From positions 372,001-436,000 of the forward strand of contig NZ_CP119791.1 in NCBI RefSeq assembly GCF_029338295.1: a stretch of DNA of 64,000 nucleotides, given 5' to 3'. The notes beneath the pieces were generated by a model that saw nothing but the letters and a program-made list of their open reading frames with translations, made no database searches and was not told the origin of the DNA. Every line of letters starts with the position of its first letter. Position 1 is the stretch's first letter. This DNA is from Haladaptatus sp. QDMS2. GTDB taxonomy: Archaea; Halobacteriota; Halobacteria; Halobacteriales; Halococcaceae. The translations under genes and the position numbers were made by a program. Positions 55,364 through 58,222 of this stretch are shown here, one piece after another.

Positions 55364-56008
55364 CTACGCGTCTCTTTTTGCGAGGCCAGCGAGGTGGCCC
55401 ACTTCCGGGACGATGACTTCGTTCGCGCCGAGACATGCGGCGTTCTCGCTTCCTGGCAGGGCGAACACGGGGACTCCGTCGGCGATACCTGCGGCTGCGC
55501 GGGTTCCGACGACGCGGGTGCCGATCTCGTCGAACGAGAGCCGTCGGAACAGTTCGCCGAAGCCAGGGAGTTCCTTCTCCATCAGCGGCGAGATAGCCTC
55601 GATTGTCACGTCGTCGGGCGTCACACCAGTCCCGCCGGTGGTCACCACGACGTTCACGTCGTCGCGGCCGACGAGGCGGTCTACGGTCTGTTGAATCCCA
55701 TCGAAGTTGTCGTCGATGAGTTCGCGGGTGGCGACGGTGTGCCCTGCGCCTTCGAACGCCTCGGCTATCGCGTCACCCGCGGGGTCGTCGTCGAGCGACC
55801 GAGTGGTGGACACGGTGACGATGGCGACGCCGACCGTCTCTACGTCGTGGTGGTGGTGACCGTGTTTGTGGTCGTCATGGCCGTGCGTGTGGGCGTCGTG
55901 TCCATGTTCGTGGTCGTCGTGACCGTGCTCGTGGTCGTGGCCGTGTCCGTCGTGGTGTGATTCGTAGTCGTGTCCGTGTCCCGTGTCGGCGTTCTTCTGC
56001 TCGGCCAT
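55364..56008 (-). CDS. moaB: MoaB/MogA molybdopterin biosynthesis protein with histidine-rich N-terminal tail
   Basis: 214-residue protein. Residues 1-55 hold 21 histidines, alternating with Asp, Gly and Glu (for example [11 protein letters not shown]), then the MogA/MoaB fold begins [17 protein letters not shown]. The molybdopterin adenylyltransferase motifs [16 protein letters not shown] and [15 protein letters not shown] are intact. The catalytic domain adenylates molybdopterin; the tail looks like a metal-binding or metal-storage tag seen in nickel and zinc chaperones and is not part of the family. It begins at the ATG giving [10 protein letters not shown]. Confidence 0.92.
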
Positions 56009-56059: not shown

Positions 56060-56506
56060 TTAGCTCCCCGTCTCGTCCGGGATGGCGCCCATCTGGCGCA
56101 TCATCCCCAGCACGTCGAAGTTGGTCCAGACCTCTGTGACCTGTCCGTCTACGATACGGTCGATTTCGATACCCGTTACCTCGACGTGGTTGCCGGAGGC
56201 CGGAACGCCGGCGAGCTCGCCGTCGTGGGTACCGACTGCCTTCCAGCGCGTGGCCACCATGTCCCCTTCGGAGACGATGTCTTCGATGGTCACATTGAGG
56301 TCGGAGAACGCCTCACGGTACTGTTTTACGTTCTTTGTGAACCCTTCGCGTCCGTGAATCGATTCCGGTTCTGTCGGATTGTGTTCGACGTACGATTCTG
56401 CGATAATCTCGTCGACGACGCTGTAATCACCCGTGTTCAGCGTGTTCCACAGTTTTTGGACAATCTCTTCGTTCGATGCCGCTGGGCGCGTTGCTTTGCT
56501 TGCCAT
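56060..56506 (-). CDS. SnoaL-like (ester cyclase/NTF2-fold) protein, first tandem copy
   Basis: 148-residue alpha+beta barrel protein of the SnoaL/NTF2-like superfamily. EIIAESYVEHNP, REGFTKNVKQYREAFSDLNVTIEDI, and the ending VEVTGIEIDRIVDGQVTEVWT are typical of ester cyclase-like members. It is a tandem duplicate of the next upstream gene: both start MASKATRP and both end GAIPDE-like, with the same length. The ATG is preceded by a ribosome-binding-like GGTGAGGGA. Ligand unknown. Confidence 0.9.
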   Translation of the reverse strand: MASKATRPAASNEEIVQKLWNTLNTGDYSVVDEIIAESYVEHNPTEPESIHGREGFTKNVKQYREAFSDLNVTIEDIVSEGDMVATRWKAVGTHDGELAGVPASGNHVEVTGIEIDRIVDGQVTEVWTNFDVLGMMRQMGAIPDETGS

Positions 56507-56594
56507 TTCCCTCACCCAGTACATGCTAGGTCGTTTCAGGCGATAGACTCGTATGCGTGATTCTGTGGACGTCAAAAAAGGCTGAACTTCTCCG

Positions 56595-57041
56595 TCAGCT
56601 CCCCATCTCGTCTGGAAGTGCCCCCATCTGTTGGAGCATGCCGAGACTGTCGAACTGGTTCCACGCCTCGACGACCTTGCCGTCCTCGAAGCGGTCGATT
56701 TCGATGCCCGAAATTTCGACGGGCTTGTTCGTCGGCGCGATTCCGCGCAGGTCACCCGTGTGCTTCGCGTTGAGGCGCCATCGAAGGGCTACTTCGTCGC
56801 CTGCGGCGAAGATGTCCTCGATCGTCAGGTCGATGTCGGAGAACGCTGCTCGCATCTCCTCTATGTTCGCGCGGAAGCCGTCGCGGCCGCGAATCGGTTC
56901 TGACTCGAAGGCGCTGTGTTCGACGTAGTCGTCTGCGACGTACTGGTCTACGAGGCTGTAATCGCCGTACGTTCCCGTTTCCCAGAGTGCTCGCACGATG
57001 TCGGCGTTCGATTCGAGTGGGCGTGTCGCTTTACTTGCCAT
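56595..57041 (-). CDS. SnoaL-like protein, second tandem copy
   Basis: 148-residue paralogue of the downstream copy. It shows the same skeleton: VADDYVEHSAFESEPIRG, GFRANIEEMRAAFSDIDLTI, and VEISGIEIDRFEDGKVVEAWN. The two differ mostly in the middle (TNKPV versus SGNHV), so they may bind different ligands. The start is MASKATRPLES, preceded by GGTGAAGGA. The 88 bases between copies contain nothing else I can recognise. Confidence 0.9.
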   Translation of the reverse strand: MASKATRPLESNADIVRALWETGTYGDYSLVDQYVADDYVEHSAFESEPIRGRDGFRANIEEMRAAFSDIDLTIEDIFAAGDEVALRWRLNAKHTGDLRGIAPTNKPVEISGIEIDRFEDGKVVEAWNQFDSLGMLQQMGALPDEMGS

Positions 57042-57178: not shown

Positions 57179-58222
57179 ATGAAGGCGGTACACTTCGACG
57201 AACACGGCGACCGCGACGTACTGCAGTATGGCGAACTCCCGGACCCCGACCCGGCCCGCGACGAAGTCATCGTAGAAATGCGGGCAGGTGCACTCAACTT
57301 CCTCGACGTGTGGACACGACGGGGCCTTCCCGGCCTCGACCTCGAGATGCCCCACATCCCCGGCAGCGACGGCGCGGGCATCGTTCATGCGGTGGGCGAG
57401 GACGTGGCCAGATTCGAACCGGGCGACCGCGTCGCGGTCACGGCGGGTCTCTCCTGTGGCGTCTGTGAGTTCTGTCGCGATGGCGACCCCTCGCTGTGTG
57501 AGGACTTTGGCGTCCTCGGCGAGCACACCCGTGGCGTCCACAGCGAACTCGCCGCCGTGCCCGCGGAGAATCTCGTCCCCGTCCCCGAACACGTCTCGTG
57601 GGAAGTCGCGGCGGCCGCCCCGCTCGTCTTCCAGACAGCGTGGCGAATGCTCATCACGCGCGCCGAACTCGAACCCGGCGAGAAAGTGCTCGTACTCGGG
57701 GCCAGCGGCGGGGTGGGTCACGCCGCGATTCAGATTGCGAAATACGCCGGTGCGGAGGTGTTCGCCACCGCTTCCAGTTCCCAGAAACTCGAACTCGCCG
57801 CAGAGTGTGGCGCAGACCACGTCCTCAACTACGAGGAGACGGACTACGCAAGCGAAATCTACGAACTCACCGACAAGCGTGGCGTGGACGTCATCGTCGA
57901 CCACGTCGGCGGCCCGACGTGGCAGGATTCGATAAAGAGCCTCGCGAAAAACGGCCGCCTCGTCACCTGTGGAGCCACCCTCGGACGCCACCCGCAGACG
58001 GACTTAAATCGCATCTTCTGGAACCAACTGCAGATTCTCGGGTCGTCGATGGGGACGCCCGGGGAAGCCGACGACGTACTCCCGCTCGTCTGGGACGGCA
58101 CCTTCCGCCCGCACATCCGCGAGGTGCTGCCGATGAGTGAGGTCAAACGCGCCCACGAGATGCTCGAAAATCGCGATGGATTTGGGAAGGTTGTAGTCGT
58201 TCCGGACTCCCAGTACAATTGA
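57179..58222 (+). CDS. Zinc-type medium-chain dehydrogenase/quinone oxidoreductase
   Basis: 347-residue MDR protein. The N-terminal GroES-like domain has RAGALNFLDVWTRRG and the structural zinc lobe CGVCEFCRDGDPSLC (four Cys); the NADPH domain has VLGASGGVGHAAIQIAKYAG. The catalytic zinc cysteine position in the first domain (LNFLDVW) holds Leu/Asn, so catalytic zinc is probably absent and the enzyme is quinone-oxidoreductase-like. The start MKAVHFDEHGDRD is chosen over a long frame across the promoter. It overlaps the next small gene by one base. Confidence 0.92.
   Translation: MKAVHFDEHGDRDVLQYGELPDPDPARDEVIVEMRAGALNFLDVWTRRGLPGLDLEMPHIPGSDGAGIVHAVGEDVARFEPGDRVAVTAGLSCGVCEFCRDGDPSLCEDFGVLGEHTRGVHSELAAVPAENLVPVPEHVSWEVAAAAPLVFQTAWRMLITRAELEPGEKVLVLGASGGVGHAAIQIAKYAGAEVFATASSSQKLELAAECGADHVLNYEETDYASEIYELTDKRGVDVIVDHVGGPTWQDSIKSLAKNGRLVTCGATLGRHPQTDLNRIFWNQLQILGSSMGTPGEADDVLPLVWDGTFRPHIREVLPMSEVKRAHEMLENRDGFGKVVVVPDSQYN

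Follow-up and report, generated by a model that had tools for sequence, protein, structure and literature searches.

A conserved histidine-rich N-terminal tail on MoaB, the predicted molybdopterin adenylyltransferase of haloarchaea

MoaB of Pyrococcus furiosus is a molybdopterin (MPT) adenylyltransferase that assembles as a dimer of trimers (PMC3896444). For Cnx1G a copper precedent has been described (Kuper 2004, as cited in PMC11489736), the MPT-bound structure (1uuy) carrying in its title a link between molybdenum and copper metabolism, and whether MPT is capped by copper or another metal before molybdenum insertion has been a standing question since that structure. In haloarchaea, natural His-rich stretches are known on other enzymes: that of Haloferax volcanii PitA binds to resin charged with nickel or cobalt (PMC8576121, PMC5746218). 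The genes for PitA and Cdc48d are essential, yet cells stay viable when the His-rich part of either protein is exchanged or cut away (PMC6985049).

Within the 64,000-nucleotide stretch of Haladaptatus sp. QDMS2 DNA that we analysed (the window; positions 372,001–436,000 of NZ_CP119791.1), a moaB-type gene on the minus strand (55364–56008, ATG start) encodes a 214-residue predicted MPT adenylyltransferase. The MoCF_biosynth profile (PF00994) matches residues 62–204 as a full-length domain (profile 1–143 of 144; E 3e-28; 98.7 bits against a cut-off of 26.6), and the solved structures nearest to the core are MoaB proteins (1y5e, E 4e-35). The catalytic fold (residues 57–214; 55364–55840, minus strand) is modelled by AlphaFold2 as a confident MoaB-type fold (core pLDDT ~98), the monomer superposing on 1y5e over 156 residues with Z 28.1 and rmsd 1.0 Å. 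The active-site motifs GGTG (residues 125–128; 55625–55636, minus strand), GFGExFR and PGS are all kept, the GGTG columns being invariant or nearly so in our alignment A1, where His205 of the C-terminal helix (55394–55396, minus strand) is also nearly invariant. The best NCBIfam match, the equivalog moaB_proteo (TIGR02667), reaches 156.3 bits, below its curated cut-off of 222.4, and by this score the protein falls outside the proteobacterial equivalog. ORF, PF00994 and fold match thus agree on the complete MoaB/MogA fold with a 21-histidine N-terminal tail that an earlier note on this DNA had described. An antisense ORF (55394–55960, plus strand) was set aside as a shadow of the MoaB His codons.

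A protein search of the genome found a MoaB/MogA-type protein at this one place; the remaining PF00994 matches comprise a pair of adjacent MoeA-like ORFs and two matches called CinA-like by judgement. Since the genome also encodes MoaE (MPT synthase) and two PF00384 molybdoenzymes, this MoaB is the best and only candidate MPT adenylyltransferase of the cell, its activity being predicted. Upstream and divergent, an MDR alcohol dehydrogenase gene (57185–58222) is the neighbour of moaB, as in 29 of 35 haloarchaeal loci; it says little on function, because it is not a molybdenum gene. A clustering of neighbours was confounded by antisense frames. Two tandem SnoaL-like genes (56060–57041) lie between moaB and the alcohol dehydrogenase gene.

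The N-terminal tail (residues 1–54; 55847–56008, minus strand) contains 21 His, 9 Asp, 8 Gly and 4 Glu, with only 2 His among the other 160 residues of the protein. Its first His is residue 11, so that the His-rich stretch measures ~44 residues, close to the ~46 given in the earlier note. The tail has the His-rich low-complexity segment that marks His-rich metal-binding proteins and is predicted to be disordered from its composition and model confidence (AlphaFold2 residues 1–50: pLDDT ~60–64, no secondary structure). It ends in the junction motif HHHHD (residues 51–55; 55844–55858, minus strand), whose haloarchaeal consensus, from conservation in 96 sequences, is HH-x-H-D. Chance composition as the source of the tail was ruled out, at least 21 His in 54 residues having a binomial P of ~2.5e-18 given a local His mean of 3.0% (nine neighbouring proteins). 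Fresh DNA slippage was likewise rejected: no perfect tandem unit in the tail DNA exceeds 7 bases, and Gly and His codons differ at synonymous positions (GGA/GGC/GGT, CAC/CAT). No homologous GTPase, FKBP or LarC domain was found in the protein, its sole Pfam match being MoCF_biosynth, and by sequence its resemblance to the HypB, SlyD and LarC metal chaperones is limited to the tail.

Every one of the order's 391 genomes gave a match to the MoaB core, and N termini were read in 158 distinct haloarchaeal MoaB sequences. A His-rich tail occurs in 100 of them and a short form ending DDHGHD in 28, mainly from one family (f5; 24 scored so and four more), while 28 lack the motif and 2 have a reduced one. 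A conserved peptide, MVDF[QE]xRDT[RS]R, followed by an acidic linker, opens many haloarchaeal MoaB whether or not they have the His motif. Among 96 His-type sequences, His is found at positions −4, −3 and −1 before the fold in 98, 98 and 93%, respectively, with Asp next; His or Ala predominates at position −2, and position −6 is His in 72%. Farther upstream, His drops to ~30% and then below 20%, and tail length varies widely; start codons were set by a rule of thumb that overestimates some of these lengths and leaves the junction statistics unaffected. The shortest tails have ~6 residues (MGHHNH, MGDHHHH) and still place H-x-H next to the first strand. Given a junction kept at 93–98% and an upstream part variable in both His content and length, the N terminus is best described, on conservation, as a fixed site with an extension that varies. 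Searching the whole phylum for H-x repeats gave a background too noisy for any result. Among MoaB of the phylum's other families, which have short tails, a His stands no more than 10 residues from the fold in all 30 sequences. The haloarchaeal tail therefore appears to have grown out of an older N terminus that already contained His; the MoaB tree cannot root gains and losses of the tail.

Far from being absent or highly variable in close relatives, the outcome that the earlier note had named, together with no effect on molybdoenzymes, as telling against its idea, the tail is shared by both congeners and the junction is conserved as above. The survey of haloarchaeal N termini that the note had proposed thus finds the tail widespread and HH-x-H-D kept, with length and upstream sequence left to vary. 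The note's interpretation is borne out in part: the tail is real, but, judged by its distribution, it belongs to the haloarchaea as a lineage and is conserved throughout an archaeal class.

Conservation of the motif goes with that of the catalytic signatures. GGTG, GFGExFR and PGS are all kept in 128 of 130 motif-bearing copies (long form, 98/100; short, 28/28; reduced, 2/2) and in 1 of 28 copies without the motif, these last belonging mainly to one clade, so that the correlation reflects a few independent events and not 28. Moreover, the C-terminal segment of His205 contains a His in every one of 158 sequences of the His-type, short-type, unclassified and outgroup sets, related non-haloarchaeal archaea included, and 19 of the 30 sequences that lack the tail motif have none there. 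By these patterns the motif is tied to the intact enzyme, and in annotation it would help to tell Moco-active haloarchaeal MoaB from degenerate paralogs. Family f5 genomes (for example at L140, L141, L164 and L166) hold a second MoaB paralog with a degenerate active site, in which GGTG is changed to GATS or GSAS, and with an acidic, His-free tail.

The motif also follows the Moco pathway. Of 78 genomes tested for MoaE and read for MoaB, 71 have MoaE, and 70 of these 71 encode a MoaB with the His motif (68 with clear H-x-H and two, G003 and G049, with a partial one). In the exception, G236, no motif-bearing MoaB was found, and a second look near moaE showed no further MoaB there. MoaE is absent from seven genomes, six of which also lack a motif-bearing MoaB, the remaining one (G275) having a DGHD-type MoaB. 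The association gives a Fisher P of 2e-7, or 2e-6 with the two partial motifs counted as absent, in a sample that is non-random in that part of the 78 genomes were picked for weak first-round matches. The MoaE losses are spread over four genera and thus provide more independent cases than the motif-less MoaB clade; two of these genera (g28 and g53) also hold genomes with both MoaE and motif. In 16 genomes moaB lies within ~10 kb of moaE, and these copies are His-type, except that of G003, which is a partial His copy; no motif-less moaB copy was seen within that distance. Going with MoaE as it does, the tail motif is tied, at the level of gene content, to Moco synthesis.

To place the tail among other His-rich proteins of the genome, a DNA pattern for HxHxHxH was run over the whole genome, where it matched 55 times and its reversed control 23 times. 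Checking covered the first 30 listed matches and went partly beyond, to an ABC ATPase and a permease, and the convincing proteins among those checked were MoaB, a LarC with a long His-rich insert (L147:1062–2462; PF01969, nickel insertion), a Znu-like ABC ATPase, a NicO-like (nickel/cobalt) permease named from sequence features without a Pfam match, and a Cdc48d-type AAA ATPase with the C-terminal tail DDGHDHDHDDHDHDHSHD (L146:153–1058). The last gene overlaps the start of a gene for a metallo-beta-lactamase-fold (PhnP-like) protein. Three of the four proteins other than MoaB are thus annotated as handling nickel, cobalt or zinc, the AAA protein being the counter-example. Since the PitA stretch binds nickel and cobalt resin, metal binding by the MoaB tail is likely by analogy; since the PitA and Cdc48d His-rich parts are dispensable in H. 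volcanii, a need for the MoaB tail cannot be assumed.

We give an even chance to the reading that the tail is a selected transition-metal-binding element of an MPT adenylyltransferase and buffers or exchanges metal close to the dithiolene. MoaB, in place of MogA, would load MPT with AMP, after which MoeA would insert molybdate. The fixed HH-x-H-D at the start of the fold would be a putative transition-metal site and the disordered His/Asp/Gly stretch of variable length a low-specificity metal reservoir, together holding a soft or borderline metal (Cu+, Zn2+ or Ni2+) near the enzyme. The tail would then either shield the exposed MPT dithiolene from free metal or exchange a capping metal before molybdate insertion. 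We infer metal binding, the choice of metal and the buffering or exchange role from these features; copper is suggested solely by the Cnx1G precedent, and from sequence zinc and nickel are as likely. Some points speak against a metal role. The Cdc48d-type AAA protein has such a tail, with no metal role known for it; MogA and Cnx1G, which are not known to have one, are active; and, as some MoaB tails have ~6 residues, a long reservoir would not be essential.

A somewhat unlikely alternative is that the long tail is a near-neutral habit of the lineage: disordered acidic tails are frequent on haloarchaeal proteins, GAC to CAC changes replace Asp by His, only solubility at high salt would matter, and metal binding would be incidental. 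The highly variable upstream sequence, with lengths from 6 residues up, would be expected from such drift, as would His-rich tracts turning up on the Cdc48d-type ATPase and tracts of PitA and Cdc48d that the laboratory organism can do without (PMC6985049). Drift accounts poorly, however, for His at −4, −3 and −1 being conserved at 93–98% across families, for the His-free acidic tails of the same family sitting on paralogs without catalytic motifs, and for the HxHxHxH stretches being confined to very few proteins of the genome. The junction motif may instead be structural or catalytic in MoaB itself, for example by forming with His205 a metal site that keeps the oligomer together, or by contacting MoeA, with the long tail as a mere elaboration. 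This is an unlikely reading in our view, to which the H-x-H beside the first strand even in the shortest tails, the His there in 30/30 related archaeal MoaB, the C-terminal His of every intact copy (gone from 19/30 motif-less copies) and the dimer of trimers of P. furiosus MoaB (PMC3896444) all lend weight.

Set against a structural or catalytic junction is the activity of E. coli MogA and Cnx1G, which are not known to have the motif. A function outside Moco synthesis, with the protein a moonlighting MoaB relative and the tail a metal sensor, seems very improbable: Mycobacterium smegmatis MoaB2 is reported to bind sigma A (PMC11656743), whereas here the catalytic motifs are intact, the protein is the only MoaB/MogA of its genome, moaE lies nearby in many relatives, and the motif-bearing MoaB is lost together with MoaE.

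The metal-binding reading has a stronger version, which we regard as distinctly unlikely: MoaB would be a metal-exchanging adenylyltransferase whose HH-x-H-D and His reservoir both give and retrieve the metal capping the MPT dithiolene, most likely copper, at a site derived from the older archaeal N-terminal His. If true, the proposed copper step of cofactor synthesis would be a built-in, genetically removable part of MoaB. With a conserved, removable metal-binding tail of this kind present in the genus Haloferax, which is genetically tractable, the question of the capping metal could be tested directly.

Compared with known systems, haloarchaeal MoaB combines an enzyme and a type of tail that are each familiar. 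P. furiosus MoaB (4lhb) shares the fold (Z 24.6, rmsd 1.8 Å), the GGTG active site, the archaeal origin and the predicted MPT adenylylation, but its solved chain has no His-rich tail, and it is a known hexamer whereas the haloarchaeal MoaB was modelled as a monomer. MoaB 1y5e, with 43–44% identity over the core and rmsd 1.0 Å, likewise lacks a His-rich tail in the solved chain. Cnx1G and MogA have the same fold and, as predicted here, the same reaction, at 28% identity; they are not known to have a His tail. Haloarchaeal PitA and Cdc48d, contaminants of metal-affinity purification from the same class of organisms, do carry natural His-rich stretches, but these are other enzymes, whose stretches lie within a linker or C-terminally and are dispensable in the laboratory. 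In agreement with the earlier note, which knew of no such tail on MoaB, none was described on MoaB or an MPT adenylyltransferase in the literature searched, with subscription journals mostly outside it. HypB, SlyD, UreE, Hpn and the LarC of this genome also have a disordered His-rich segment that is thought to store or deliver metal; they differ in family and in their unrelated fold, metal delivery being for MoaB a conjectured role, and the MoaB tail would extend such His-rich tails from nickel- and zinc-handling proteins to the molybdenum pathway.
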